From the NCBI GenBank assembly GCA_001544655.2, contig FCOD02000048.1, positions 1 to 34,270 on the forward strand: a DNA stretch of 34,270 nucleotides, given 5' to 3'. The notes under the pieces were generated by a model that ran no database searches, was not told where the DNA came from, and was given only the letters and a program-made list of their open reading frames with translations. Source of the stretch: Caballeronia turbans (lineage in GTDB: Bacteria; Pseudomonadota; Gammaproteobacteria; Burkholderiales; Burkholderiaceae). This document shows positions 6,401-33,182 of the stretch, piece after piece; the stretch's first letter is position 1; each line of letters begins with the position of its first letter. The position numbers and the translations under genes are program-made.

Positions 6401-7613
6401 CAGGCGGAACGTCGGTCACAATCGGCGATGGATAACTGCCCGTGCGCGCCGTCTCGATAGCGCTCTCATCGATGTCTGTGGCGAACACCTGGATGCCACA
6501 ACCTTTATTGGCTTCCGCGACACACTCGTTAAGCAGCATGGCGACCGAATACGCTTCTTCGCCGGTCGAGCAGGCCGCCACCCAGACGCGGATGGAGTCG
6601 TCATCGGACTTGTCTTCGCAGATGCGCGGCACGATTTCGCGCTCAAGGGCTTCAAAAGCGTCCCGATCGCGAAAGAAATTCGTCACACCGATCAACATGT
6701 CCTTAAGCAATGCCGAGGACTCTTCCGGGTGAGTGTCGAGAAACCGCTGGTACGAGGGTAAGTCTGGAAGCGCGTTGACTTGCAGCCGACGTTCAATGCG
6801 TCGCAGAACCGTCGCGCGCTTGTAATGCCGGAAGTCGTGCGCGGTGCGGGCGCGCAGCGTAGAAAGGATTTTATGCAGTGTGTCTTCTGCGAGCGGCGCC
6901 GAATCCGGCGCTGCACTACTATCTGCCGATGTTGCTATGAGAATCTGATCGTCGCCGGCGGGAGGCAACTGAATCGCTCGCGCGTTGTCGCGCAGTTCGA
7001 TAAGTTTCTGCGGGATCTCAGCGACCGGTAGCGCAATGTCGACCAGGCCCGTCGCGATGGCATTGCGGGGCATCTCATCGCATTCGGCGTCCTCGGGACT
7101 TTGCGCGATCGTGACGCCGCCATGCTCCTTGATCCGACCTATTCCTATCGTGCCGTCGCTGCCAAAGCCCGACAGAACCACGCTGATCGCGCGGGTGCGG
7201 TGCACTTCGGCGAGGCTGCGAAAAAACAGGTCGATCGCCACCGGTCGTCCTGGTTCGCGATTCGACGGCGTCACTCTCAGATAGCCATCATTCATCGACA
7301 GGTCGTTAGCCGGCGAGATGAGATAGACATGATTCTTTTCGATCTGAGTCGCATTCAGGACTTGCACGACGGGCATTCTAGTGAGTCTCTGGAGCACGGC
7401 GTCGGCCTGGCTCTCATGCCTGGGCGACAGATGAAGTACGATCACAAACCCCATGCCCGCGTCGTTTGGCATGTGCTCAAAGAGGCGCGTCAGCGCTTGA
7501 ATCCCGCCGGCCGATGCCCCGATGCCGACGATCGGAAACTCCAGCGACGGCATGACAGAACGAGTCACGTCGGGCGGATCAACTGAAGGATCAGGCGCTT
7601 TATTGCTTGTCAT
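3459..7613 (-). CDS. CheB-CheR-PAS-PAS-histidine kinase-receiver hybrid sensor
   Basis: A 1384-residue cytoplasmic signalling protein with no membrane segment. Domains in order: CheB-like methylesterase (about 26-205; GIGASAGG with Ser34, His61, Asp153); CheR methyltransferase (about 245-505; VAACSTGEEAYS near 344-356 for S-adenosylmethionine, SCRNLLIYL at 448-456); a degenerate PAS-like part (550-650); a coiled coil (about 670-760, repeated SNEEL/INEE units); PAS (765-865); PAS (880-990); HisKA with His1027 in SHELKNPLN; HATPase with NVVRNALKF at 1142-1150 and DTGQGI at 1174-1179; and a C-terminal receiver (1264-1384) with phospho-acceptor Asp1314, acidic pair Asp1270/Asp1271, Thr1344 and Lys1366. 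The CheB part has no N-terminal receiver. No CheA, MCP or separate response regulator lies nearby, so output partners must be encoded elsewhere. No clear Shine-Dalgarno at ATG 7613. Confidence 0.93.
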   Translation of the reverse strand: MTSNKAPDPSVDPPDVTRSVMPSLEFPIVGIGASAGGIQALTRLFEHMPNDAGMGFVIVLHLSPRHESQADAVLQRLTRMPVVQVLNATQIEKNHVYLISPANDLSMNDGYLRVTPSNREPGRPVAIDLFFRSLAEVHRTRAISVVLSGFGSDGTIGIGRIKEHGGVTIAQSPEDAECDEMPRNAIATGLVDIALPVAEIPQKLIELRDNARAIQLPPAGDDQILIATSADSSAAPDSAPLAEDTLHKILSTLRARTAHDFRHYKRATVLRRIERRLQVNALPDLPSYQRFLDTHPEESSALLKDMLIGVTNFFRDRDAFEALEREIVPRICEDKSDDDSIRVWVAACSTGEEAYSVAMLLNECVAEANKGCGIQVFATDIDESAIETARTGSYPSPIVTDVPPARLRKFFTLTHGRYLINKSLREQVLFAAHNLLRDPPFSKLDLVSCRNLLIYLDRTVQRQVLQTFHFALQPGGYLFLGSSESAEIADDLFVAIDKKSRIYRAKKSASARPASTLPFVGPLAQPTHFSNIKPAIGRTDSSFSALHRSAMEHYAPPSVLIDRDGEILHMSEDVGRFLRYVGGEPSHNLLTLINPELRLELQTALFQALRHGKSVDAERVRFARGTALSYVNMTVRPFYDAAVGDLLAVFFDEAEETTLPEASEVAPTDESPVVAHLEAEVRRLKELLHSTVEHSSVSSEELKASNEELQAINEEMRSASEELETSKEELQSVNEEILTVNGALQAKVEETAKANDDLQNLIASTGISTIFVDRSMRIKRYTPAAVGLFNLIATDIGRPLLDLTHRLHYPQLAADVRSAFEDLKSAEREVSTLDGDWFLARVLPYRTVDDRIDGAVLTLIDITQRRRAEAAARSSEERLKLAALTTDDYAIIVQDSDGTILSWNRGAHRMFGFEEHEVVGKPIDLIFVPEDRPGAALAERETAKKEGRAEDERWHLRKDGRKIYCSGVTTSIDTVGFKGLAKIARDLTDRKSVESQQQLQLALERAIRAQAETVNRQKDEFFAVLSHELKNPLNLIHVKAELLSRSPEVKDIALVQDAADAIQRSVLGQSKIIDDLLDLSRVRTGKLALHFSPVNLASVLRAIVEASDAEAANKQIRMAVSGVDAPLTIQADPVRLEQMIWNVVRNALKFTPHGGRVNLSLTRDDRYVCIEVCDTGQGIAPDFLPKVFDMFSQADGGGRRDRGGLGIGLSLTKQLAEMHGGRIEGTSAGLGQGSCFRLWLPHLPPSSSVLPAGKTGDPSILTGLRVLLVDDSLEGLEGFRTLLELEGAQVRAESTPEAALKVASESEFDLILSDIGMPTMSGYELIAKLRELPACRAVPAIALTGFGREQDAAEALRAGFDAHLGKPVSLNALLVAIGGNLRKK

Positions 7614-21070: not shown

Positions 21071-22327
21071 TTACCAGTCTATTCGGTGCTTTTCGTCGGT
21101 TTCTTGATGGCGTCGGTCGTCATCGATGTGCAGGTAGAGGCTCGTCGTCGTCAGCGATGCATGCCCGAGGTTGTCGCGCACGAGGCGCAAGTCGACTCGC
21201 TGGTCGGCCATATGCGATCCTGCGCTGTGCCTCAACCAATGCGCCGAGGCTTTTGCCAACAGGTCGGCGCGTGCGGCAGACGTCTCGTCGCGCTTGCGGA
21301 GTCGGGCGGCGGCCTGCGCGAACACTTCTTTGACGATCGCATGCAGTGCGGCGCGTGTCAAAGGCGCGCACGTCTGCGTGCCACCGTTCGCTGCCGTGGC
21401 GCCAATGGGCAAGACCAGCGGCGTGTCTTCATTGGGCGAGGGCAGTGCACTCAGCCCGAGATGCTGCCGGTATCGCGAGAGCTCCGTCATCATTTCACGC
21501 GTCGCGGGCACGAGCCGTTCTTTGCCGCCTTTGCCGTGCACGGTGAGCCACCATCGGATGTCTGCATTGCTATCACGGCGAACAAAAAACTGCCCCATCG
21601 TATTGCCACCGACCTCAGCAATCCGCAGGCCGCCCAGATAGAGCAGCGTGAAGAGCCACCGCACACGAGAGGCATGAGCGATCTGGCGTGGCGTATCGCT
21701 TGGCATGGCCGCGATGGTGTCCTTGACCTCTTGCCAAATGCTCGGCTCCAGATAGCGGGTGATGCGCGGCGCCGCGTGTCGGGTACGCTGTCGAGAGAGC
21801 GAGAGGGGATTGCCGGCCAAGTAGCCCGCCTGAACCAGCCACGAAAACAATGCATTCAGAATCACGATCGCCTGGCGCTGACTCGCAGGCGAGAGCGGCC
21901 CGTAGAAAGGACGCCAGCGCGCGTCGCTGCGGGCGTGCTTACGCCCGCCACCCGCAACCCAGCTCGCCGCCGGTTGCGGATCGGCCAGGAAGTGTTGATA
22001 GCGCAGGCAGTCCTCGTGCGTGAGCGAGGAGAGCGGTTTGTTGAGCATCACGACGGACCACAGCAGGAGCCGCTCGGCTTCCTTGCGGTAGTTCTCGAAG
22101 GTGGTCCTGGTGTCCGTGAAGCGCGACAGCCACGCCCGGATCGCATCGAGATCGTTGTTCGCGGCGATCTGTGCGCGACCCGTGACGGCGCGATTGAAAC
22201 CCGTGCGGCCGTCCATCTCGGACGGGATCACAAGCATCTCCAGCGGCGCAGGCTGAAGTGCGAGGGAGGGCGGCGAGGGCAGTGCGGGCTTCAAGATCGG
22301 GCGATTTGGAAAGCGGCTTTGAGCCAT
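21071..22327 (-). CDS. tyrosine recombinase / phage-type integrase
   Basis: A 418-residue site-specific recombinase. SAM-like N-terminal core-binding domain (about 60-175; NDLDAIRAWLSRF, TFENYRKEAERLLLW, LTHEDCLRYQHFL) followed by a complete catalytic domain: Arg in LYLGGLRIAEVGG, Lys in HGKGGKERLVP, His-x-x-Arg in HWLRHSAGSHM, His in LVRDNLGHASL and the nucleophilic Tyr in TTTSLYLHIDDD. The Pro-rich first 50 residues are probably unstructured. ATG 22327 preferred over TTG 22339; neither has a strong ribosome site. It lies downstream of a repeat-rich, DnaA-box-containing stretch. It could be a plasmid/chromid multimer-resolution enzyme or the integrase of an island whose edge is the adjacent DUF1488 remnant. 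Confidence 0.9.
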   Translation of the reverse strand: MAQSRFPNRPILKPALPSPPSLALQPAPLEMLVIPSEMDGRTGFNRAVTGRAQIAANNDLDAIRAWLSRFTDTRTTFENYRKEAERLLLWSVVMLNKPLSSLTHEDCLRYQHFLADPQPAASWVAGGGRKHARSDARWRPFYGPLSPASQRQAIVILNALFSWLVQAGYLAGNPLSLSRQRTRHAAPRITRYLEPSIWQEVKDTIAAMPSDTPRQIAHASRVRWLFTLLYLGGLRIAEVGGNTMGQFFVRRDSNADIRWWLTVHGKGGKERLVPATREMMTELSRYRQHLGLSALPSPNEDTPLVLPIGATAANGGTQTCAPLTRAALHAIVKEVFAQAAARLRKRDETSAARADLLAKASAHWLRHSAGSHMADQRVDLRLVRDNLGHASLTTTSLYLHIDDDRRHQETDEKHRIDW

Positions 22328-22359
22328 TTTAATCGACAAACTTGGTATATATGGCTTGT

Positions 22360-22550
22360 TGTTGCGTTGGTTTGGTTTTTCAGATTTGCCGTATTTTAAG
22401 GGGCAAAGCGGCCAAGTTATCCACAGGATTGCCTATCTTTTTTGGTTGCCTGTTGCGCACCGCTGCGGCCGATTTTTGTTGCGTTATTCGCGGCAGAGCG
22501 ACGCAACAGGATCTCTCTGACATAAGGGTCTTGTCGCCCGGCGTGTTGCG
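22360..22550. repeat. cluster of TGTTGCG repeats
   Basis: TGTTGCG occurs at 22360-22366, 22451-22457, 22477-22483 and 22544-22550 on the plus strand and inverted at 22502-22508. The second and the inverted copy extend to a perfect 9-bp inverted pair CCTGTTGCG / CGCAACAGG (22449-22510). Such spacing fits binding sites for the neighbouring integrase (arm-type sites or an operator) or iterons. No gene lies in 22340-22577. Confidence 0.5.
22417..22425 (+). promoter_or_regulatory. perfect DnaA-box sequence
   Basis: TTATCCACA matches the strict bacterial DnaA-box consensus and lies within the TGTTGCG cluster, next to locally AT-rich tracts (22371-22400, 22432-22446). A single box can arise by chance; together with the repeats it raises the possibility of an origin-like or replication-linked site. 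No replication initiator gene is seen in the window. Confidence 0.4.
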
Positions 22551-22577: not shown

Positions 22578-23072
22578 TTACTTCTTCAGGTTGACGCCGA
22601 GGTGCCACAGCACATCGATATTTGTGAGATAGACGGTGACGTTTTCGCGCGATGCGTGGATGATCGAATGTTCCTGACCAGCGGCTATATCAACCTGTGC
22701 TGACGACGGGTCTTCAAGGCTCTGGCAGACGTCGCTGATTCCGTCGCGATACTGTTCGAGCCGGTCCGCTTTCCAGTTTCGCACAACGTCCGGTGCCAGA
22801 AGCACAGTCAGGATTCCTTTCCTTTCACCGATATACCTCACAGGGGGAAGCAGGCCTCTGATGTAAAGCACCAGGACCGCGTCAATCACACGATCATCGT
22901 GGTCTTCATCCCAGATGACGGCGAAGTCGAGAAACGCACAGTGTTCGATTCGATTTAGCGACTCGTCGTGCCAGACCGGTGCCCGAAGCACGGAGTAATG
23001 GGTGCCACGGCCGAAGGTGCCAACTGGATGTGTCTCGTCGTACAGGGTCTGGAAGAAGTTGCAATGTTGCAA
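22578..23072 (-). CDS. unknown protein, last gene of the recombinase operon, start shifted by an 8-bp duplication
   Basis: About 164 residues, no domain I can name. Recognisable blocks: FFQTLYDETHPVGTFGRGTH, AFLDFAVIWDEDHDDRV and YIGERKGILTVLL; acidic, soluble, no signal or membrane segment. The open frame only offers TTG 23072. However, AAAGGAG lies 6 nt before ATG 23080, whose frame differs. Between them GTTGCAAT is tandemly repeated (plus strand 23058-23065 and 23066-23073). Deleting one copy joins ATG 23080 to this frame (MTYCNFFQTLYDE) with the same 164-residue length. I infer that the gene is frameshifted in this copy, or weakly expressed from TTG. It follows the coiled-coil gene by 77 nt on the same strand and is probably part of that operon. 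Confidence 0.6.
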   Translation of the reverse strand: MQHCNFFQTLYDETHPVGTFGRGTHYSVLRAPVWHDESLNRIEHCAFLDFAVIWDEDHDDRVIDAVLVLYIRGLLPPVRYIGERKGILTVLLAPDVVRNWKADRLEQYRDGISDVCQSLEDPSSAQVDIAAGQEHSIIHASRENVTVYLTNIDVLWHLGVNLKK

Positions 23073-23157
23073 TAGGTCATCTGATGCTCCTTTCGGGAGG
23101 AACGCAGGTTTCCGCCGCAGATGCCGGCCATTTCGTGACCGGCAGATCCGTTAAGCG

Positions 23158-23646
23158 CTATCGCTTGATCTTTTTCCGACATTCTTCTGGCGGCATGGCC
23201 GAGACGGGTGCAGCCGGCATCGCGTCGAAGTCCGCGAGCCTGTCGCGGATCTCCCGGTGATGTTCATAGAACTTCGCCCACTTGTTCACGCCGCCCAGTT
23301 CGCCGACGGCGCGCAGCATGGCAAGGTGCGACGCGGTCAGCAGTTGCACAATAGATTCGAGTTCTGCAATCCGTACATCTTTGTCGGCAAGCGATGCCGC
23401 AATGTCGGCGCCGGACCGTTTGGCGATACGTGCGCGCCATTGTCGGTACTCGGCCTGACGCAGTTGATATTGAGCAAGCAGCCTGCTGCGCGACTCACTG
23501 CGGGTAATCGACGATGCTGCCTTGATAGACGGATGTAGTCGTGCAATGGCGCGCGCCGTGATGTTTTCGTCGTCCGCCAGCAACGTTTCGAGAATCTCGC
23601 GCATCTGGTCGTCGCTGGACGATGTTGTATCGTCGGGTTTACTCAT
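23158..23646 (-). CDS. coiled-coil accessory protein (TnpC-like position)
   Basis: A 162-residue soluble helical protein: acidic Ser/Asp-rich start (MSKPDDTTSSSDDQMREILE), a basic helical middle (IARLHPSIKAASS, LAQYQLRQAEYRQWRARIAK) and a coiled coil (about 100-130; SLADKDVRIAELESIVQLLTA) ending with HLAMLRAVGELGGVNKWAKF. Small helical proteins of this sort follow the recombinase genes of Tn554-type transposons (tnpC) and assist or orient recombination. Homology here is inferred from position and character, not shown. ATG 23646 has GGAG 6 nt upstream. It lies inside the last codons of the frame-corrected int3, an 8-nt overlap that implies translational coupling. Confidence 0.65.
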   Translation of the reverse strand: MSKPDDTTSSSDDQMREILETLLADDENITARAIARLHPSIKAASSITRSESRSRLLAQYQLRQAEYRQWRARIAKRSGADIAASLADKDVRIAELESIVQLLTASHLAMLRAVGELGGVNKWAKFYEHHREIRDRLADFDAMPAAPVSAMPPEECRKKIKR

Positions 23647-23943
23647 CAAGTACTCCACGTTCCCGGGGCACCGAGAGATCCGGGCCATCGGGGAAGGGGC
23701 GCTCGCCGGGCGGTGTTGCAAGCAGTTTCTGAATGCCGTCGAGTCGTTTCTCCGCGTGTTCAAGCTGGTTCTGCCAACCGATACTGGTCGATGCTCTGGC
23801 CTTGATGGTTTCAAGGGCGGATTTGAACTTGGCTTCGAGCCGGATCAGGTTCTTCCGGTTCTCTGGCAGATCGGTGGCCGACAGGTGGCGGCAATCCGCA
23901 AAGCATTCGAGATGTTTGGGGCACGGGTCGACCGTAAAGGAAT
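23639..23943 (-). pseudogene. displaced C-terminal segment of int3
   Basis: About 100 codons open in a frame one base away from int3, beginning just before the int3 stop: YGHCLNSFTVDPCPKHLECF, ADCRHL, then a helical stretch (ENRKNLIRLEAKFKSALETI) and a Pro-rich end, stopping at TAA 23639-23641. It has no start. A Cys/His-rich block followed by a helix is what related large recombinases carry at their C-terminus. Restoring one G in ACTCGTACGG (near 23960) fuses it in frame after ADGFHATR and gives a 774-residue protein. Confidence 0.75.
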
Positions 23944-25962
23944 TCAGGCAATGTCCGTACGAGTGGCATGGAAGCCGTCGGCTTCGGCGCGCAGGTATTC
24001 ATACGCGGCGGCGTCGCCCTCGGTCGCCTCGATACGCTTGAACGTATCGACGATCGGGCCGCTTGCCTTGCCCCTCTTGATGAGCCGTGCAACGATACTG
24101 GCCTTCTCGCCAAGCATGATCTCGATGTCCTGCGGGAGTGCGATCTGATCGAGCTCTTCGATGAGGCTACGATGGTCATACTCGTGACTCTGCGCAATGC
24201 TGCGCCGGTTGAAGCGTTTCGAGATGATCGTGTCGGCCACGCCCAGCCGGAACAACTCGGTGTTTTGAAGATGACGTAGCATGTGTGACTCAATCTTCAA
24301 GGCCCGGTCTGCGTCCGTCTGTCCGTATTTTTCGAAGAGTGACGGGATTTGTCGCTGGTCACCGAGTGCGAGACCGACGAAGCGAGGGGTAGGGCGACCG
24401 ACCGACATGATCCGGGCAACGTCGCACAAGCCTTCGTTGCGCTCCTCTACAAGAGACCGCTTCGGTTGAACGAACAGAAGTTCCCACGGCTGCACGACGC
24501 CGGTACCAAGCCGCAGCGGCGTTGTGTCTGACACCTTGGTTTGGCTCGTTGCGCGAACATGATCCTCCAACTCACCAACATGAAGAAAGGTGTTGTGCCA
24601 GACCATGCGATCCCGAACTCCCAATACCTTTCCGTCCGCTTGCCGGAATCGCAACGCAGTCTCCCCGGTGCGCATCCTCTCGAGCATGCGTTTGCCGAAC
24701 TGATACACCGCCATATCTAGCGTGACGGGACTGTGCTCGGGTCTTTCTGTCTGATGTCGATGCACTTCAGTCAGCACGTCGGGATCGAAGCCATCCCGAT
24801 AGCGATCGATAAATGGCTTGTGCTCAATGTTCAGCCAGAACGGGTTGCCCGTCAGTCGCACATAGGCGTGCGTGAACGGTACGAGATCATTGACCCCGTA
24901 CCACGGTAGCAAGCGGCCTGTTTCGCATTGCCGTTTCAGCGTCGCTCGCAATGGCTCGGTCAAACGCTCAACGCGCTCAAGCGTCTGCGTAAGCGTCGCC
25001 CGGAACATGTCTGGAACCGGCTGCGTTGCCTCATGGAGGAGTCGGCTATCCGATTCGTCATCTTGCTGCTTTTCGGCGAAGTGGCGGACCATCAGGGCCG
25101 TCGAGATGCCCGCAGACTCTCCGGCTGGCCGTCCTTTCGCATCCAGATAGCTGCGCTCCCGCTTCCAGTCAACAGGCAATAGGGCGGCTTCGCCCGCGCG
25201 CATGCCGGTTACGATCATCGTGCGGATGACGGCGAACCGCAGATCGTCCATGAACGTGAGCGGCTTTTCGGTCATTACGATACGGGTTAGCTCCCAGAAC
25301 GCTCTGCGCGCGGGTAACCGTTCTTTCCGTTTTCGATCTTCGAGATCAGCACGCAACTCATCCTCTGACCACGTATGCCTCGCCCTGGTCACATTCGTCA
25401 TTTTCATGCGAGGCAAAGCGAGGGATGTGTATAAGGGGCCCGCATCACAAATGTGTTGGACGTCGAGTACAACCTTGACCACTCCGATCACCAGATCGCC
25501 CAGCTGTCCTTTGGCTTGGATCGCCGCGCCCACGCGTATCGCTAGACGAAGATCATCGACGGTCAGTTGCCACGGTTCCTTTTCCACGCATGACGCAATC
25601 ACCCGCAGCGGACGCGTGATGCACGACATGACGTATTGCGCGGTATTGCGCCTCAACAGAAGCTGCTCGACCGCAGCAGACTTGATCAAGTTCTGCCACG
25701 TTACGGTCAGCGGCCCTTGTGTCAATGGCGCCACGCCGGCCTCGACGCGCCCGGCGTTGATGATCGCCAACGCCTTCCGATCAGGGCCCAGGTCTTTCAA
25801 ATAGAAGCGCGGTGGCGGCACATCGCCCGCAATGGCAGTAAGGTTCCAGCCGACGCCGTCTTGTGCTGCACCCGCCTCATCGAGTGGCATTTCCCAGCTC
25901 ACCCCCTTTTGTCGGGCGAGGGCCTTCCCGAGTTCGATGAAGGCGGCATAGTGGGGATTCAT
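23944..25962 (-). CDS. large tyrosine recombinase int3 (Tn554 TnpB-like), C-terminally frameshifted
   Basis: A 672-residue recombinase, long for the family. N-terminal and core-binding regions (1-200), then a catalytic domain with a large insertion: Arg255 in VTGMRAGEAALLP, His560 and Arg563 in ESHMLRHLQNTEL, and Tyr595 in AQSHEYDHRS. Such oversized enzymes act together with partner recombinases in Tn554-type elements. The frame ends at TGA 23944-23946 right after ADGFHATRTDIA; the cysteine-rich tail continues in another frame (23639-23943). The catalytic residues are kept, so partial activity is possible. ATG 25962 overlaps the int2 stop by one base (TGATG). Confidence 0.82.
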   Translation of the reverse strand: MNPHYAAFIELGKALARQKGVSWEMPLDEAGAAQDGVGWNLTAIAGDVPPPRFYLKDLGPDRKALAIINAGRVEAGVAPLTQGPLTVTWQNLIKSAAVEQLLLRRNTAQYVMSCITRPLRVIASCVEKEPWQLTVDDLRLAIRVGAAIQAKGQLGDLVIGVVKVVLDVQHICDAGPLYTSLALPRMKMTNVTRARHTWSEDELRADLEDRKRKERLPARRAFWELTRIVMTEKPLTFMDDLRFAVIRTMIVTGMRAGEAALLPVDWKRERSYLDAKGRPAGESAGISTALMVRHFAEKQQDDESDSRLLHEATQPVPDMFRATLTQTLERVERLTEPLRATLKRQCETGRLLPWYGVNDLVPFTHAYVRLTGNPFWLNIEHKPFIDRYRDGFDPDVLTEVHRHQTERPEHSPVTLDMAVYQFGKRMLERMRTGETALRFRQADGKVLGVRDRMVWHNTFLHVGELEDHVRATSQTKVSDTTPLRLGTGVVQPWELLFVQPKRSLVEERNEGLCDVARIMSVGRPTPRFVGLALGDQRQIPSLFEKYGQTDADRALKIESHMLRHLQNTELFRLGVADTIISKRFNRRSIAQSHEYDHRSLIEELDQIALPQDIEIMLGEKASIVARLIKRGKASGPIVDTFKRIEATEGDAAAYEYLRAEADGFHATRTDIA

Positions 25963-27500
25963 CAGTCGTCGACCTCCAACTCGTCAATGACTGTCTGTAT
26001 TTCGGCAATCGTGCGCTGCAGTTGGAGGTAGGCTGGCGACTGGGTCTCCCCGCGGGAGCTCCGCACGAAGAACACGACCACCTCGCGCATTGAGGCCAAC
26101 ACGTTCTCGTGGATCGCCTTGTCATGCAGGGGCATGAACTTCCTGCATCCGTAGCACGACGTTATGGGGTTATAGGGGCACGCGAGCTGTCCCGACGTAC
26201 AACCGCCAATGCCTGCAATCGGTATCCCGTGAGGCACGCCAGCGATCTGTTGGTCACCCTTGAGTTGGGCGAGTTCTTCCGGGGAGATGAACCGGTCGTG
26301 CGCGATCCTTGCCACCCGCCGATAGATGTCCGATGCGCCGAGCGCGCGGTTGACGCGTTCCGCGTGAGAGGCTGAGGTCCTGAAGTAAACCAGTCCGGTC
26401 GGGACGTACGAATGCCCCATGAACTCGGCGAGCTCTTCGTGGCTCGCGCCAGCATCCACCATGCGCTGGGCGGCTGTATGCCGCAGATCGTTGGCACTAC
26501 CACGGGATTGGGAGCTAATCAGCCGGCGAACAAGCGCGGCGATGCGAGCCCCAGCCTCATAGTTCGACTGCACATTGAAGAAGTGTGCGTTATTACCGGT
26601 CTCGTCTGATCGCCGCCAGTCTTCGAGTACAACAAACAGAGGCGCCCATTCACGCTTGACTCTGCGCGTCAGAGGTAGCCGCTTCGATTTGTTTCGCTGC
26701 TTGGCCATGTGGAACGTCAGGTGCACAGTTGGCGACCCGTCCCGCGAATTGGACCAGATGCGGACGTTTCGCATGCTCAGCATCGCAATCTGGATGGGGC
26801 GCATCGCGAACTGGTAGGCGCACAGCAACATGCCGGCGTCGCAGATTTCCTCGCGGGGAACCTGTGCGCCGGATGTAAGGGCTGTGACGGTTTCGTCCAG
26901 GTGTCGCACAATCGCAGCTTCCTCATCCGCGCTCAAAAACACATCTCCCGAGTGGACACCTGCATAGGGATTTTGGGCCGGCAAGGGGAGAACATCGGTA
27001 ATGTAGGCGCTGTAGGAGTTAGACCAGCCTTGGAGACGGTAGCAGCACAGAAGCCGCAGCAGTGACTTTGCCGCGATGTAGGTCGAATGAGGCATCTCCC
27101 GCGCGCGCAATGCCGCCCAGACGAACCTGATTTTCCACGGGCCTGCGCGCACGATGCCTATGATGTCTTCCCGTGTCAGGTGCGCCGCCGAAATCAGATA
27201 ATCCGTTGCCGTGGACACGGCGAGATCCATGCCCAAGAGATACAGGAAGACGTGCTTTAGCAGCAGAGCGTGCTTGTCCTCGTACCGTGTGAAGTCAACT
27301 TTCACCGTCCGGCCACAGATTTTCAGCTCAAACACCATCATCCGTTCCGGATGACGAATTGAATATTGGGTGTCGTTAAATTCATCACGGTAGCGGATGA
27401 CTGGAGGCAAGGCCGGCAACGCTGCCACGACGCAATCGATACTGCCATCGGTAGCTGATGGATCAGGCTGCGGGGTTCTTGGACTGTGCGGTTGCTGCAT
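25962..27500 (-). CDS. tyrosine recombinase int2 with C-terminal zinc-finger-like motif
   Basis: 512 residues. Core-binding region (about 60-190), catalytic domain with Arg234 in YQFAMRPIQIAML, Lys-rich beta-hairpin HMAKQRNKSKRLPL (264-277), Arg340 in NDLRHTAAQ (Asn337 replaces the usual first His of that box), His363 in FMGHSYV and Tyr372 in GLVYFRTS. A C-terminal extension has Cys434, Cys441, Cys449 and Cys452 (C-x6-C-x7-C-x2-C), likely a metal site for DNA or partner binding. I place the start at ATG 27500, one base after the int1 stop (27502-27504), instead of the open frame to 27599. The last codons overlap int3. Second gene of a tight recombinase operon. Confidence 0.88.
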   Translation of the reverse strand: MQQPHSPRTPQPDPSATDGSIDCVVAALPALPPVIRYRDEFNDTQYSIRHPERMMVFELKICGRTVKVDFTRYEDKHALLLKHVFLYLLGMDLAVSTATDYLISAAHLTREDIIGIVRAGPWKIRFVWAALRAREMPHSTYIAAKSLLRLLCCYRLQGWSNSYSAYITDVLPLPAQNPYAGVHSGDVFLSADEEAAIVRHLDETVTALTSGAQVPREEICDAGMLLCAYQFAMRPIQIAMLSMRNVRIWSNSRDGSPTVHLTFHMAKQRNKSKRLPLTRRVKREWAPLFVVLEDWRRSDETGNNAHFFNVQSNYEAGARIAALVRRLISSQSRGSANDLRHTAAQRMVDAGASHEELAEFMGHSYVPTGLVYFRTSASHAERVNRALGASDIYRRVARIAHDRFISPEELAQLKGDQQIAGVPHGIPIAGIGGCTSGQLACPYNPITSCYGCRKFMPLHDKAIHENVLASMREVVVFFVRSSRGETQSPAYLQLQRTIAEIQTVIDELEVDD

Positions 27501-27501
27501 A

Positions 27502-27649
27502 TCAACTCCGAAGCGGTAAGGCGCGCAGCAGTGCAACCCGGTCATCGAAGGCGTCATTCCAGACACCGGCCAGTCTGTCCTCAAACACCGCGCGTGCATA
27601 CCGGGACGGCATCAAGGATGTTCTGGACCAGCCAAAGAACACTCGCATT
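27502..27649 (-). pseudogene. int1 recombinase, severed C-terminal 49 codons with the catalytic Tyr
   Basis: Continues int1 beyond IS66-B: after QK come MRVFFGWSRTSLMPSRYARA and then VFEDRLAGVW to the TGA at 27502-27504. Tyr in MPSRYARA is the expected nucleophile (residue 385 of the rebuilt protein). Joining 31964-30862 to 27649-27502 gives 1251 nt, exactly 417 codons, confirming the frame. It has no start of its own and ends one base before the int2 ATG. Confidence 0.85.
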
Positions 27650-27657
27650 TTCTGGAG
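27650..27657. repeat. 8-bp target-site duplication of IS66-B, left copy
   Basis: TTCTGGAG at 27650-27657 is repeated at 30862-30869, directly outside both ends of IS66-B. Confidence 0.92.
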
Positions 27658-27800
27658 GTATCCGCCCGAGAATCCCCGTAGTAGCGAGTGTTCTCGATTT
27701 CGCCGAGACTTCAGTACCGTCGGGGAGATGGTCGGCAGTAGTGCCGGGGGATAGGCAGCAGCGTCGGTGCCCGTGAGGGGATGGGGTGAGCGACGACGGG

Positions 27801-28187
27801 CTACCGCCGCGGAGCTTCGCGCGCGTCGCAGTAAAAGCTCAAGGTATCGTCATCCTTGATCTTGACGTGCCAATGGCCAACGCAGTACCTGGCGTCGGCG
27901 AACTTCTCTCGCCAGCGATTGGAGAGCTTGCCGATCCAGGCACGCGCCTCCGATGGCATTTGCGGCGAGTCGGCCATCTGCTGCAGCATCTGTAGATAAC
28001 TGGGGTCGCCGTGAGGGGTGTTCGCTGCGACATGTGCGTTCCAGATCAGCACGACCAGCTTGTATATCTCGCGCACGACGGCGATCGGCGTTTCTTCGGT
28101 GATGGCTTCGGATATGAGCGGCTCGCCGAAGTCCAGGATCGTTTCGGAGATCTTGCGCTCGGTCTTTCCCGCACTTGCTTTACCCAT
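27801..28187 (-). CDS. passenger gene of IS66-B, unknown function
   Basis: A 128-residue protein starting MGKASAGKTERKISETILDF. Helical, soluble, with a short basic start and an aromatic C-terminal half (WIGKLSNRWREKFADARYCV, GHWHVKIKDDDTLSFYCD). It lies 31 nt after tnpC, inside the inverted repeats, on the same strand, so it is part of the element. No domain recognised. Some IS66 members are known to carry an extra ORF; a role in regulation of transposition or a benefit to the host are both open. ATG 28187 is preceded by GGAACGAAACG, a weak ribosome site. Confidence 0.6.
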   Translation of the reverse strand: MGKASAGKTERKISETILDFGEPLISEAITEETPIAVVREIYKLVVLIWNAHVAANTPHGDPSYLQMLQQMADSPQMPSEARAWIGKLSNRWREKFADARYCVGHWHVKIKDDDTLSFYCDAREAPRR

Positions 28188-28218
28188 CGTTTCGTTCCGT
28201 TTAATGCGTGAGCCCGGT

Positions 28219-29940
28219 TCAGTGTCGGCTCGCCGAGCCCGCGATCGGCAAGGATGACATCCACGCCGCGCTCGACGCCGACCCAGCCACGCCAGAAGGC
28301 TTCCAGTTGTAGGGTGCCAATTCCTCGATCCGGTTGACCGGGTGCTCGTTGATACGTCCAAGCACGTCGGCCAGATAGTCGTACGGGTTGACATCGTTGG
28401 CCCGACAGGTCGCCAGCATGCTGTAGAACATCGCCGCGGCCCTGCCTCCGGCTTCGGAACCGAAAAAGAGATGGTTCTTGCGCGCGATTGCCACTCTGCG
28501 GATGGCACGCTCGATCAGGTTCGAATCCATCACCAGATTGCCGTCCTCCACATAGCGCGTGAGCGCTTCCCAGTTCGATAGAGAATAGGCAATTGCCCGG
28601 CCCAGGGCCGACTTGGGCAGGACTTCGTTCGCCATAGCCTGCAACCAAAGCTGGTAATCGTGTAAAACGGGCACCGATTCCAGTTGCCGCACCCGCCTTC
28701 GCTCGGATGGATCGACATCGCGCAACCTGCGCTCGATGTCGTAGAGCTTGCGAATCCACGCCAGCGCCTGCGCGGCCACGCTCTCGCCGGCTGTCTGTGG
28801 CGATTCCTTGCGAAGCTGACGGTAGATCTTGTAAAACATCCGGCGGGCGTGCACATGGCAGGCTACGTGCCGGATCTTGCCGCCGCGAAACAGCGCCGCC
28901 CAGCCCGAGTAATCGTCGGCCTGCAGATAGCCCTCGTAATTGCGCAGCAGTGCCATCGGATAGCGGCCGGCCCGGCTCGACGTGTAGTCGTAGTAGACCA
29001 CCTTGGGAACGCTCACCCACTGACCGTCGCGCAACATCGCTCCCGCACTTGCATAGCCCCACAGCCGGACCGTCCTGGTCCGCTCCAGTTGTTTGCACAA
29101 CTGCGGAAATGGTGTGTCGTCGCCAAAGATTACCGGCGCGCTCAGTAACTGCCGACAGAACACCTCGTACAGGGGCAACATCAGCTTCGCGAGTCGAATC
29201 GTCCAGTCGCTCATCGTATTGCGCGAAATGCGCAACCCATGCATCGTGAACTCTTCCTCCAGCCGGTAAAACGGCATGCCCGAGTCGAAGTGTGCCACCA
29301 CGATGCGCGCCAGCAACTCCGGGCTCGCATTGCTCTTCAACAGCGGCGACGCCTGGAAAGTCACGCCGCGCACCGTCGAGACACCGTCCTTGACCAGCAC
29401 ATATCGCGGGCACACATGCTCGACTACGGAAATCCTGGCCGGAGTGTACTTGAGCGTGCGCGTGACGGTCTCGCCGATCACCGTCACCCGGTCGTATTGC
29501 GCCAGTTCCTGTTCCGGCATCGCATGCACGACGCGCTCGCGCGGCAGATCGTCTGGCAGCGCCGGACGTCCCTTGCTGCGACGCTTGCGCCGGTGGCCCT
29601 CCACGGGGATCGACAGATCCGGAATCTGCGGGGGCAACGGCGCTTCGTGATCCTGATCGAAGATGTCCAGTTGCAACCCGCTCATGCGCTCGCGGCTCGC
29701 TCCGAACAGTTCCTGCCGCGCGTTGGCCAGTTTGGCCCGCATCTCGAGCAGCGCCTGCTGCGTCCTGGCCAGCAATTCGCTTTGCCCCTCGACCCGTGCG
29801 CGCAACTGTTCGATCTCGCGCTGCTGCTGTTCGATCGTCGCATCGCGCGCCGCAATCGCACCGAGTAATTCGGGAAGGTTCCACGCCCCCAATGCCATCG
29901 GCAAGGGTTGTTTCGAGGCCGGGACGTTGAGCGGTTGCAT
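28219..29940 (-). CDS. tnpC: IS66 transposase TnpC of IS66-B
   Basis: 573 residues. A coiled coil (about 25-75; ATIEQQQREIEQLRARVEGQ), then FGASRERMSG, a basic linker (GHRRKRRSKGRPALPDDLP), and a DDE core with VIFGDDTPFPQL (first Asp), LQADDYSGWAALF (second Asp) and DSNLIERAIRRVAIARKNHL (Glu), ending NPYDYLADVLGRINEHP. The cysteine pairs seen in IS66-A TnpC are not obvious here. Intact. 51 nt separate it from tnpB. The opposite-strand and other-frame ORFs over this gene are shadows. Confidence 0.94.
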   Translation of the reverse strand: MQPLNVPASKQPLPMALGAWNLPELLGAIAARDATIEQQQREIEQLRARVEGQSELLARTQQALLEMRAKLANARQELFGASRERMSGLQLDIFDQDHEAPLPPQIPDLSIPVEGHRRKRRSKGRPALPDDLPRERVVHAMPEQELAQYDRVTVIGETVTRTLKYTPARISVVEHVCPRYVLVKDGVSTVRGVTFQASPLLKSNASPELLARIVVAHFDSGMPFYRLEEEFTMHGLRISRNTMSDWTIRLAKLMLPLYEVFCRQLLSAPVIFGDDTPFPQLCKQLERTRTVRLWGYASAGAMLRDGQWVSVPKVVYYDYTSSRAGRYPMALLRNYEGYLQADDYSGWAALFRGGKIRHVACHVHARRMFYKIYRQLRKESPQTAGESVAAQALAWIRKLYDIERRLRDVDPSERRRVRQLESVPVLHDYQLWLQAMANEVLPKSALGRAIAYSLSNWEALTRYVEDGNLVMDSNLIERAIRRVAIARKNHLFFGSEAGGRAAAMFYSMLATCRANDVNPYDYLADVLGRINEHPVNRIEELAPYNWKPSGVAGSASSAAWMSSLPIAGSASRH

Positions 29941-29991
29941 AGGTCAGCATTATCGCCGCGATCGAGGTGCTCATGGACATATCCTCGCGAT

Positions 29992-30342
29992 TCATGCGAC
30001 CACTGTTGCGTTCACCGCACGCACGCGCCGACGTACGCCGATATCGATCCCTTCAAGCCAGGTCGTGAGCTCGGCAAGCGAGATTCCCCGCCGCGCGATG
30101 GCCGCGGGATCGGCAAGCGAGCCGCTCTCGAAACGCTTGTACATCAGCCAGAATCCCGTGCGGTCGTAAACCAAAACCTTGATCTTGTCACGGCGCCGGC
30201 CGTAAAACACAAACACGTGCCCACTCAGCGCGTCCTGATCGAACATCGGACGCACCAGCATCGAAAGCGAATCGATCGACTTGCGCATGTCGATCGGCTC
30301 CGCGGCGATGTACACCCGCACTGCCGTCGAAAGCATCATCAT
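29992..30342 (-). CDS. tnpB: IS66 TnpB of IS66-B
   Basis: 116 residues with the TnpB hallmarks VRVYIAAEPIDMRKSIDSLS, HVFVFYGRRRDKIKVLVYDR and GFWLMYKRFESG. The C-terminus ends with an HTH-like acidic helix and basic tail instead of LPW. The first of three ATG codons (30342) overlaps the tnpA stop as ATGA. Needed with TnpA for IS66 transposition; molecular role unclear. Confidence 0.9.
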   Translation of the reverse strand: MMMLSTAVRVYIAAEPIDMRKSIDSLSMLVRPMFDQDALSGHVFVFYGRRRDKIKVLVYDRTGFWLMYKRFESGSLADPAAIARRGISLAELTTWLEGIDIGVRRRVRAVNATVVA

Positions 30343-30779
30343 CGCGCCCCCGCACCGATTCGATCGATCATCGCCTGAAGCAAAGGCTCGAGCACGTACA
30401 CCGGCAGCCGCAGCCGAATCCCATCGCCCAGAATCAACTCCGGCACCTCGCACGCGCTCGTGTTACCGGAGACGCCCACCGCGCGATCGACGATGCCAAC
30501 GCGCATAAAGCCCGCCATGCTCTGCGCGACTGCAACCGTGGCGCCCGTGTTCTGCTGAACGTCACCGCTTCGCTCCGCCTGGCGAGCAAGTGCCAGGTAC
30601 CTCGTCATCGAGGAACGGGAAATCCCGCTGCGTTCGCTATAGGCCTGGATCGTCAGCCCGCTTGCTCGAAACTCGCCTATGACTTCTCGCCACGGCCGTG
30701 TGCAGCGATTGCGCCGCCTTCTCGCCGGCGCCGAACTCACATCCGCCGCATCCTCAGGCAACTTCTCCGCTTCCTGCAT
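30339..30779 (-). CDS. tnpA: IS66 TnpA of IS66-B
   Basis: 146 residues. Helix-turn-helix region (about 28-65): RPWREVIGEFRASGLTIQAY and SERSGISRSSMTRYLALARQ. The C-terminal half ends in the TnpA pattern ELILGDGIRLRLPVYVLEPL. Its ATG at 30779 has a strong GGAGG 6 nt upstream and lies 82 nt inside the right inverted repeat, so the promoter must be in that short terminal stretch or in the interrupted int1. Confidence 0.9.
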   Translation of the reverse strand: MQEAEKLPEDAADVSSAPARRRRNRCTRPWREVIGEFRASGLTIQAYSERSGISRSSMTRYLALARQAERSGDVQQNTGATVAVAQSMAGFMRVGIVDRAVGVSGNTSACEVPELILGDGIRLRLPVYVLEPLLQAMIDRIGAGAR

Positions 30780-30861
30780 GAATATCCTCCCGTCATCGCA
30801 ATGGGAGAATCGTCCAACATCGACGTCACGCCCTCAATAACGGGGGTTCTCGGGCGGATAC

Positions 30862-31964
30862 TTCTGGAGCGCCTCGTCCATGGGGTCGCCCCGCTCAAGC
30901 AGTTGATTCAACCGCATCGCGGCACTCGTGTGCCTCAAGTCGTGAGGTGTTATCGCTTCCTTGCCTGTGCGGTCTTTGAGCTCCGAGAGCACATCATCCG
31001 GCAGGCTGCGGGATACGAGCACGAATGCTTTGGTCAGTGTCTCCGTCGACAGTGGGGTGTCGAACTGCGAATTCAGCAAGTACGAGTGAGAGGGGCTGCC
31101 GCGGTAGTTCTCCACGTAACGTTGGACCACACGGGCTGTCAGCTCGCTAACAGGAATCTGCCGAAGCGAATGCACGTTCTTGATGGAAGGCTTCGAATAG
31201 CGAGGATCAACCTCCGAATCTTCGTATCCATTTTGCTCGACGTTGATCCAATACCGCGTCCGATGCTGCCCACGGTCATACGCACTTTTCACCGCATCAG
31301 CCGGCAGGAGCAATGCTTCCCCTCGGCGAAGTCCTTGATGCAACATCAGTACAAAGGCAACGAAGATGCGCCAACGCGTCGGCGCGCGGGTGAACGGATT
31401 GTGGTGAAAGTCCGGGTCAAGCAGGCGGTACAGTGCTTCAACGGTGCTGGCAGGCAACGAACGCACCGTGTCTACGGAGTTATCCCGGCGGACATGAAGC
31501 TGACGATAAAGAGCTGCACGCCGATGCAGCCGTGCCTCGATGCGTCTCATCCGGTCATCGTTGGCCTCACTCTTCGAGATCCACGCGACCACGGACAATA
31601 CGAATTCGAGACCTGTCTGCCAGCGCTTCTCGTCGGCACCTGTTACCACAGGCTGATTGCGGATTGAAACGAACCACGACTCGAGAATGTCAGCCAGTGC
31701 TTCGTCGTCCAGCGTTCCAAGCGCGTCGTCCAGCGCATTCGGGCCAACACCGAGACCGGCCGCATGTTGGTAAAGATTTTCCAGATATCGGAGTTTCTTT
31801 GTATGCGTAGACGCTGCCAGTTCGGATGACAACATTGTCGACCAGACAGCAGCCCAATAGCGGGGCAACCCAATGCCATCGAGCAGCATCGGACCGCGAA
31901 GCGACGGTGGAACCGTAGCGCCGTTCAGTTGTAGAAACACAGAGATCGTCCGTGCGAACCGCAA
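30862..31964 (-). pseudogene. int1 tyrosine recombinase, N-terminal 368 codons, cut by IS66-B
   Basis: First gene of the recombinase operon. Helical core-binding region (about 35-170), catalytic Arg213 in LMLHQGLRRGEALLLP and the His341-x-x-Arg344 box in TPHDLRHTSAAM are present. The frame enters IS66-B after MDEALQK and stops at 30834-30836 inside the IS. The nucleophilic Tyr385 lies in the severed piece at 27502-27649. The rebuilt protein has 416 residues. The start is unsure: TTG 31964 is the first codon after an upstream stop, with no ribosome site; the first ATG (31889) would remove 25 residues. Interruption also separates int2, int3 and later genes from the operon promoter. Confidence 0.85.
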
Positions 31965-31977
31965 CGACCAAAACTAC

Positions 31978-31998
31978 CAACATCACATGATGATGTTG
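31978..31998. repeat. palindrome upstream of int1
   Basis: CAACATCA and TGATGTTG flank a 5-nt centre, 14 nt upstream of the first possible int1 start. A candidate binding site for one of the recombinases or an autoregulatory operator; it may lie near the outer end of the element. Confidence 0.4.
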
Positions 31999-32056
31999 TG
32001 ACGGAAAGCGCCGATCCACTCGAACGGACGCAACAGATCGGTATATACCAGTCCTC

Positions 32057-32126
32057 GACATTATAGCATTAATGTCAAATTCAATAGCAACGTTCGTTGG
32101 TTTTGGATCGAAATACGTTGTATTAT
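32057..32126 (+). promoter_or_regulatory. candidate promoter and operators of the KfrA-like gene
   Basis: Two inverted repeats lie upstream of the KfrA-like start: GACATT (32057-32062) / AATGTC (32071-32076), and AATAC (32112-32116) / GTATT (32120-32124) with a GTT centre. TTGGTT (32097-32102) and TATTAT (32121-32126), 18 bp apart, could be -35 and -10, so the second palindrome overlaps the -10. KfrA of IncP plasmids represses its own promoter at such sites; the assignment here is inference. Confidence 0.45.
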
Positions 32127-32153: not shown

Positions 32154-33182
32154 ATGTCCGACGCTCATCCTGCAATCCCGTCCGATGAAACCCGCCTGGC
32201 GGCGGACATCGAGCGCCTCAAGGTCGAGTTCCCCAAGACGCGGGAGCTCTACCGTGAGGTGTGTGCGCTGCTGTTTTTCCGCTTTGGCGTCCCCCCGACG
32301 GCGAACCGCCTCTACAACCTGGTCCGGCGCGGCACCATGAGTACACCGGCGTCGGTCTTGAGCGAGTTTTGGGCGGAGTTGCGCGAGAAAAGCCGGGTGC
32401 GTATCGAGCACCCGGACTTGCCGACGGACTTGAGCGAAGCGGCGGGCGAGCTGATCGGGACGCTCTGGACTCGGGCGGCGACGTCTGCACAGGCCGAACT
32501 GACGTCCCTGCGCGACGAAGTCGAAGCGAGTCGCGCCGAGGCAGAACAAAAGGTCGTCGCCGCACGGGAAGAACTGGGTCGGACGGAAACGGCGCTGGAG
32601 CAGCGTACCGCGGCACTGCTAGCGGCCCAGGTCAAGATTCGGGAATTGGAGCGACAGCAAGCGGAAGAGGCCGCCACGCGTCAAGCGCTCGAGGCGCAGA
32701 TCAAGCGTCTAAGCGAAGAGGCCGTCGCTCGCGAGCGGGAGCGGGAGAAGGTGCGCGACACGTTCTCGCGTGATCTGGAGAAGCTTCGCGAGACCGCGAG
32801 CCGTGCCGAGGAGCGCTTACGCGCATCGGAAAAGCGGGCACTTCTCGAAATCGATCGGGAACGCAGCGCCACAGCAAAGGCTCAGAAAGAATTGGCCGAG
32901 GCGGCCAAGCGGGCAGACAAGCGAGAGGCCGAGCACCGTCGCACCGTCGAAGCGCTGCAGGAGCAGCAGGGCGACGCGCGCCATCAGACCGGGGTGCTCC
33001 AGGGCAAGCTCGCCGCGCTCGAAGCGGCTTATGCGTCACTTCAGGAACAGTTGAAGTCGCTGCGCACAGCGGCGCGGCCCTCTACGCGACGCGTGTCCAC
33101 CGCCGAAGCCAGTCCGCCAGCCAGACGAGCCGCCCGCAAGGCAGCGGCAGTCAAAACGGCGAGCGTGAAAGGTCGCCCGTAG
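32154..33182 (+). CDS. KfrA-like DNA-binding coiled-coil protein
   Basis: 342 residues. A globular N-terminal DNA-binding domain of the KfrA_N kind (about 10-120; FFRFGVPPTANRLYNLVRRG, STPASVLSEFWAELREKSRV) is followed by a very long alpha-helical coiled coil (about 115-300, Glu/Arg/Ala-rich heptads) and a basic Ala/Lys/Arg tail that could bind DNA without sequence specificity. KfrA proteins of broad-host-range plasmids bind their own promoter and contribute to segregation by forming filament-like assemblies. No parA/parB is visible in the window. ATG 32154 lies about 27 nt after the candidate -10; no strong ribosome site. Confidence 0.85.
   Translation: MSDAHPAIPSDETRLAADIERLKVEFPKTRELYREVCALLFFRFGVPPTANRLYNLVRRGTMSTPASVLSEFWAELREKSRVRIEHPDLPTDLSEAAGELIGTLWTRAATSAQAELTSLRDEVEASRAEAEQKVVAAREELGRTETALEQRTAALLAAQVKIRELERQQAEEAATRQALEAQIKRLSEEAVAREREREKVRDTFSRDLEKLRETASRAEERLRASEKRALLEIDRERSATAKAQKELAEAAKRADKREAEHRRTVEALQEQQGDARHQTGVLQGKLAALEAAYASLQEQLKSLRTAARPSTRRVSTAEASPPARRAARKAAAVKTASVKGRP

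Follow-up and report, generated by a model that had tools for sequence, protein, structure and literature searches.

A compact ginABCD transposon with a lineage-restricted fifth gene that very probably targets a dif-like Xer site in Caballeronia turbans

Contig FCOD02000048.1 of the 7.35-Mb draft genome of Caballeronia turbans (assembly GCA_001544655.2), the whole 34,270 nt of which form the window analysed here, carries one mobile element on its minus strand, between positions 22339 and 32054, that comprises three dissimilar tyrosine recombinase genes, a gene for a coiled-coil protein and a small fifth gene. By homology and order the first four (int1, int2, int3 and the coil gene) are ginA, ginB, ginC and ginD, the operon of the GInts, for which integration and excision require all four genes according to the accessible text of the original description (Bardaji 2017, PMC5385486); ginABCD islands are also classed as the Tn6571 family (PMC10121019). 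One GinB match was found in the genome. An earlier reading made from the letters of the window alone (the sequence-only reading) had put int1, int2, int3, the coil gene and the fifth gene in this order on one strand, and all five lie where it placed them, although the span it gave stops slightly short of the element ends.

The genes of the element, all on the minus strand, differ in their state of preservation. ginA is in two pieces. The 5′ piece (30862..31964), whose inner edge is set by an IS66 insertion, lies in an open reading frame (30834-31964) with a phage-integrase domain (Pfam, E 2.5e-7) and matches the relatives L003 and L004 at 62-63%; the 3′ piece (27502..27657), recognised by comparison with relatives, holds the catalytic tyrosine box, FFGWS..MPSRYARA, in the C-terminal remnant 27502-27649. 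Between them lies an IS66-family element of 3,204 bp (27658..30861, minus strand), matched by the IS66 transposase model at E 5.8e-109; its ends are inverted repeats of each other at 21 of 22 bases, and the 8 bp TTCTGGAG are duplicated. Without this insertion and one 8-bp duplication the whole element, delimited by terminal comparison with relatives and 9,716 bp as it stands, measures 6,504 bp. ginB (25962..27500) encodes 512 aa from the ATG at 27500, with an integrase domain (E 7.9e-7) and a cysteine-rich tail. ginC (23944..25962) is open to 672 aa and matched by relatives to residue 667, and homology to its C-terminal tail lies in another frame (23642..23959, by comparison with relatives); its integrase domain is weak and below the Pfam cut-off (E 0.0011), whereas those of int1 and int2 are above it. 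ginD (23158..23646) encodes a GinD homologue of 162 aa from the ATG at 23646, 66% to that of L003, and the fifth gene (22578..23072) a protein of 164 aa. The lengths that had been read for int2 (512 aa) and, after frame correction, for int3 (774 aa) agree with these results, intact ginC relatives being 774 aa long (L003 and L018, with a Paraburkholderia megapolitana plasmid among the examples). The tight junctions noted at the time are equally real: +1 between int1 and int2 (TGA-T-ATG), -1 between int2 and int3, which share base 25962, and -8 between int3 and the coil gene, present as an 8-base overlap in the intact relative L003. The zinc-finger-like tails of int2 and int3 likewise have cysteine positions that are conserved across the family. 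Because ginA is split by the IS66 element and ginC loses its frame near its end, the window copy is probably immobile or dead; intact near relatives exist (L018 and L019).

Twelve plasmid loci were collected via GinB and their gin homologues located by tblastn. GinA to GinD homologues stand in the same order across them with three exceptions, namely L009 (only a piece of ginA), L004 (an internal deletion in ginC) and L017 (only ginA and ginB found). A GinC alignment scan of genome contigs from 84,980 species gave 83 relatives, 80 of which were kept, and across contig relatives, plasmid loci and the window the order A-B-C-D holds in 80 of the 81 loci having all four genes. The operon is therefore no new class. 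A single coordinated mobile element, as proposed from the sequence, is upheld by this constancy, and the neighbourhood comparison that was proposed with it finds the gene order recurring at variable sites with conserved outer ends, but the suggestion of a distinct multi-recombinase class has to be given up, such elements being already described as GInt or ginABCD (PMC5385486) and Tn6571 family (PMC10121019). GinC was found in 6 of 300 genomes in an order-wide search and, within the genus, at E 0.001 in 11 of 58 genomes, seven of them strong.

In operon order, in its three large recombinases with a small GinD and perhaps in the direct repeats at its ends, the element resembles the GInts as described in the accessible text of PMC5385486. 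It also shows site-specific insertion, with a fixed geometry to a dif or dif-like site and known empty sites. Its lineage differs in a length of about 6.5 kb, in a fixed fifth gene, in a dif-like target and in having no long cargo: between ginD and the 3′ end, where GInts have at least 2.5 kb of cargo, only the fifth gene (about 0.5 kb) is present, and for this reason it is classed here not as a standard GInt but as a compact ginABCD element with GInt-like behaviour. Published GInt flanks are imperfect direct repeats of 10-17 nt (PMC5385486, accessible text); repeats of at least 10 nt were not seen in the window, where the direct repeat is 6 bp at both ends. Three other assignments were rejected. 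Tn554 shares multiple recombinases, a small protein and a 6-bp footprint, but has two recombinases plus TnpC against three recombinase genes here. RIT elements have three recombinase genes in a row, but with 34-bp terminal inverted repeats and recombinases of 315-410 aa, as far as described, against 512 aa and, in intact relatives, 774 aa. The earlier statement that the operon matches neither of these was thus correct. The strand-biased circularizing integrative elements (SEs, PMC10214605) share four core genes and a 6-bp footprint, but the gene order given in the accessible text, intA-tfp-intB-srap with other proteins, does not fit, a separation made by description only. The element, then, already belongs to the known GInt/ginABCD family, and what look new are the compact lineage with its fifth gene and the dif target.

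The catalytic residues are kept in GinA (81 rows) and GinB (84 rows), the His II position of GinB being mostly not His. Each of the 83 GinC rows with 550 aa or more keeps Arg, Lys, His and Arg, and 82 of them keep Tyr, L036 being broken at that place; the third (His/Trp) position is the sole catalytic position of GinC that is not conserved. According to the accessible text of two papers, GinC is without its first Arg (PMC5385486) or without catalytic residues (PMC10214605). The conservation seen in aligned sequences of the window and 82 relatives is contrary to both accounts of GinC as catalytically incomplete, although the missing first Arg is a descriptive trait and not one that defines the family.

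Flank comparison places the termini of the compact element at GGACTGGTATATA.. on the ginA side and ..TATATACCAAGTT on the other. Fifteen of 17 delimited relatives measure 6,478-6,525 bp and have no long cargo. L004, on plasmid pHG1 of Cupriavidus necator, is 4,795 bp long, most of ginC being deleted while the ends and the fifth gene are intact, and lies beside a 23/28 dif match; L023 is 7,114 bp long, with about 0.6 kb extra between ginD and the fifth gene. Extra sequence of similar size on the ginD side of the fifth gene is found in L028 too, and this could be a cargo entry point. Contigs L020, L025, L033 and L035 start and stop within 0-5 bases of the element termini, the pattern that a repeat with several copies would give, and Paraburkholderia diazotrophica has two copies on different contigs (L030 and L031). 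In the window the 6-bp direct repeat TGTCGA stands at 32055..32060 (left copy) and 22333..22338 (right copy), both given on the minus strand. Of 11 pairs of repeat copies 5 are identical (the window, L018 and L019, which sit at one locus, account for three of the 11), and hexamers at an element's own two ends agree at 52 of 66 bases, compared with a mean of 26.4 for shuffled partners and no value as high in 10,000 shuffles. Inside the termini lie subterminal repeats, six GTTGC/GCAAC at the right end (22361..22549) and two GTTGC at the left (31961..32034), their density being 22 per kb at either end and 4.2 per kb in the interior. In L030, from 13622, a second left-end-like sequence comes immediately after the right end, as would be seen if elements were stacked at a shared target.

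The ginA end of the window element abuts a dif-like site of 26 nt (32055..32080, minus strand) that reads ATTTGACATTA-N4-TATAATGTCGA in the gin direction. Outside the element, a KfrA-type gene (32154..33182, plus strand; PF11740, E 1.2e-17) lies on this side and a gene for an Xer-like tyrosine recombinase (21071..22327, minus strand; best NCBIfam models XerC and XerD, below cut-offs) on the other. In eight Caballeronia and Paraburkholderia plasmids these two genes are found side by side without the element, and in all eight TTTGACATTA-N4-(T/C)ATAATGT stands between them; joining the flanks of the window, of L018 or of L019 gives this pattern too. The window's own genome also has an empty version of the locus, on a second contig (kfrA at 92% and the recombinase at 83% identity). 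The same pair of genes around a conserved palindrome is present on many Burkholderiaceae megaplasmids (L098-L105) and looks like a plasmid dimer-resolution module, which suggests that the palindrome is the dimer-resolution site. It might instead be a KfrA operator, in which case the insertion in the window would be unrelated to dif. KfrA proteins bind their own promoters, the palindrome lies in a divergent promoter region and the window's site is a weak dif match; set against this, the same geometry recurs at good dif matches in the close relatives L004, L026, L031 and L034, and a separate conserved block nearer kfrA, ATAATACAACGTA, could itself be the operator, so that this explanation is considered unlikely. 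As the window's own site is only dif-like, the case that it belongs with dif rests on the identical geometry, the 6-bp repeat and the empty sites.

The wider family provides the fuller record. In 12 of 13 loci the best dif-like match starts 26 nt from the ginA end, and in the other it starts 27 nt away. The core CATAA-N6-TTATG is kept at 9 or 10 of its 10 positions in 44 of the 67 loci with full upstream sequence, compared with 10 of 2,469 control windows from the same loci. When the element motif TGTWGC is used as the anchor, the core reaches at least 8/10 in 50 of 70 loci (4 of 618 control motifs), and its distance from the motif is 23 in 47 of these 50 loci and 24 in the other three. With the 14 dif sites printed in the accessible text of Carnoy and Roten 2009 (PMC2731167) as reference, and taking the best of about 550 positions per locus, 45 of 84 loci reach at least 20/28 and 37 at least 21/28, values attained by 2 and by none of 284,848 control positions, respectively. 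Of 16 whole genomes, 11 have a single match to a dif pattern (the other five have two to six), and coordinate arithmetic puts all 11 of these single matches at the edge of a GInt. On a tree built by a quick method the dif labels cluster, requiring 19 changes against a shuffled mean of 25.4, a number as low being reached in 3 of 500 shuffles; three loci with a dif-like site visible by eye (L034, L036 and L046) escaped the automatic labelling, and long branches leave the deep order unsure. Compared at the level of sequence, these loci establish the operon, the ends of the element and their 6-bp repeat, a constant distance to the dif-like site and the empty site, and they indicate that a large part of the family inserts right beside dif/Xer sites, apparently without destroying them.

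Adjacency to dif could nevertheless be indirect if these were ordinary GInts and dif merely a region in which islands accumulate. Phages and islands are known to use dif, roughly one dif site in four has mobility genes nearby (PMC2731167), and the targets published for earlier GInts are ssb, a gene for an ABC transporter and one for a ribonucleotide reductase (PMC5385486). A core-to-motif distance that varies by a single nucleotide over all 50 positive loci, and plasmid dif-like sites that are struck with the same geometry and whose flanks rejoin into an intact site, make this explanation very unlikely. No report of GInts at dif was found in the literature searched, a search outside which subscription papers, including the Tn6571 one, lay; the term 'dif' is absent from the GInt paper (PMC5385486), the SE paper (PMC10214605) and the E. 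coli defence-island paper. The sequence-only reading had missed dif as the target.

Chromosomal GInts of E. coli served as a later check, the E. coli plasmid GInt L017 (24/28) having belonged to the set from which the idea arose. Matches were present in 301 E. coli genomes, and in all three chromosomal loci that were opened the ginA end touches a 28/28 copy of the printed Yersinia pestis CO92 dif, next to hipA. This CO92 site is taken here to be identical to the dif of E. coli. Of 5,426 complete E. coli genomes, 106 have the hipA-dif-GInt junction at 80% or more of its 181 nt, 147 have at least 80% of a 551-nt piece of the element's left end, and 5,064 have most of the hipA-dif flank. In E. 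coli it is the XerD side of dif that the element occupies, and in the compact lineage the XerC side. Right ends of cargo islands with the same geometry were found in three of 29 loci, L043 (5/6) and L047 (6/6) with 40 kb searched and L045 (6/6) within the locus; the islands measure 14.4 kb in Stenotrophomonas nitritireducens (6/6), 24.9 kb in Xanthomonas arboricola (6/6) and 21.2 kb in Pandoraea iniqua (5/6). When the flanks of the X. arboricola island are joined, the result agrees with the X. campestris dif, as published, at 27/28. Weak right-end matches without end repeats (L049 and L084) and second hits in L045 and L047 were taken as chance.

Several observations weigh against dif as the target. 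The window's site agrees with E. coli dif at 14 of 22 arm bases; the window is not among the 45 strong loci, its best match to a published dif (19/28) lying elsewhere, and the equivalent site in L018 and L019 scores 17/28. Across the family 39 of 84 loci stay below 20/28, nine of the 13 loci with the palindrome at a fixed offset reach that value, and one GinC branch (10 rows) has no dif case. The hexamers of L027 and L030 agree at only 2/6. Right ends appear in only the three of 29 loci and, even with 40 kb, in neither L041 nor L064, and in E. coli the native flank returns about 28 kb on, which places the right junction only approximately. Weighed with the evidence above, the window nevertheless very probably holds a compact five-gene GInt-type transposon, ginABCD plus a lineage-restricted gene, that targets a dif or dif-like Xer site.

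Resolution sites are exploited by other elements as well. Transposons of the Tn5053/Tn402 type, the res-site hunters, also aim at resolution sites, but with DDE transposases and at the sites of serine resolvases. Xer-exploiting elements (IMEX) generally depend on the Xer enzymes of the host and have a sequence that mimics dif. LME-1, which integrates at dif, is described as relying on the host enzymes with such a mimic (PMC9765430). By analogy the window element might be passive, inserted by host XerCD on a dif-like attachment site, a scheme that its adjacency to dif and to an Xer-like gene would fit. The IMEX trait of having no integrase of its own is not found here, however, as the window has its own three-recombinase operon; the crossover hexamer lies in one arm of dif and not at its centre, the three recombinases have catalytic residues, and GInt movement is reported to need all four gin genes (PMC5385486, accessible text). 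Host-driven insertion is accordingly extremely unlikely.

Under insertion by the element's own machinery, the Gin proteins would together recognise the dif palindrome as a landing pad. In the window this would be the putative megaplasmid dimer-resolution site between kfrA and the plasmid's own Xer-like gene. The form that joins at dif would be a circle in which inverted TGGTA-type ends surround the overlap, and the 6-bp overlap would be exchanged at dif nt 21-26 (counted towards ginA) rather than where Xer cuts. GinD or the N-domains of the Gin proteins may bind to the subterminal GTTGC repeats. As the overlap would end up on both sides, nt 1-26 of the 28-nt site would persist on the ginA side and dimer resolution may continue. 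With a near-complete dif left there, insertion would be tolerated and a new element could land again (compare L030).

The fifth gene marks a lineage of these elements and not a class. Its distribution was assessed in loci with at least 700 nt after ginD, or in which the gene was found, for a close set of 23 loci nearest the window (window, L003, L004, L018-L036 and L082) drawn by identity and not by tree, L024 being set aside as having no room. The gene follows ginD in 21 of the 22 testable close loci, the exception being L026, and in none of 66 other loci with room (two further loci have too little room), which led to its rejection as a universal component. The five-gene set of the sequence-only reading, which had named absence of the fifth gene from otherwise conserved operons as evidence against it, thus stands among the closest relatives and falls in the wider family. 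On the tree L035, which has the gene, groups with L037, which does not, on a sister branch, and a stop codon is present within the L022 copy. The three plasmid loci opened from Vibrio, Pantoea and Klebsiella have homologues of about 39-40% identity and no gin genes, and in an order-wide search one of 300 genomes, that of the window itself, had the gene. Searches of Pfam, NCBIfam and PADLOC gave nothing significant, the sole PADLOC match being HEC-01B in 1 of 17 members (E 0.018) and the best match to a solved structure having E 0.73. On this distribution the fifth gene is a lineage-restricted component, and probably an acquired gene that turned into a part of the element.

Cargo behind other gin operons (L133, L130 and L012) includes defence-like genes: Mov34, ThiF, nucleotidyltransferase and HNH genes in E. 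coli VE-T9, retron Ec78 PtuAB in another E. coli and Qat genes on a Pseudomonas aeruginosa plasmid. Rhizobial gin operons (L011, L013, L014 and L128) have behind them, in the same order, a small gene whose product is about 136 aa long and a gene for an AAA ATPase; a profile match between this small gene and the fifth gene failed, and no further comparison was made. Two dif-like sites elsewhere in the genome of the window (G000:C30:223059 and G000:C49:103338) are perhaps those of two chromosomes; GTGTTGCGG, a motif found at element ends, occurs 12 nt past the first of them, and no gin operon was found there. The window also carries a RES-type toxin gene (2020-2529) and a gene for a CheB-CheR-histidine-kinase hybrid of 1,384 aa (3459-7613).

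Collectively these results make it likely that a large ginABCD branch, with members in Acidobacteria, alphaproteobacteria, betaproteobacteria and gammaproteobacteria (E. coli among them), works as a self-sufficient machine of three recombinases: it would seek out dif/Xer sites and insert beside them at a fixed distance while leaving them functional, so that new arrivals can stack and chromosome termini and plasmid resolution loci are seeded with islands. If this is true, it would explain where a widespread but poorly understood family of islands integrates and how it does so, and would reveal a way to insert at an important site without breaking it. It would also mean that the question of why three recombinases are needed becomes testable in E. 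coli.

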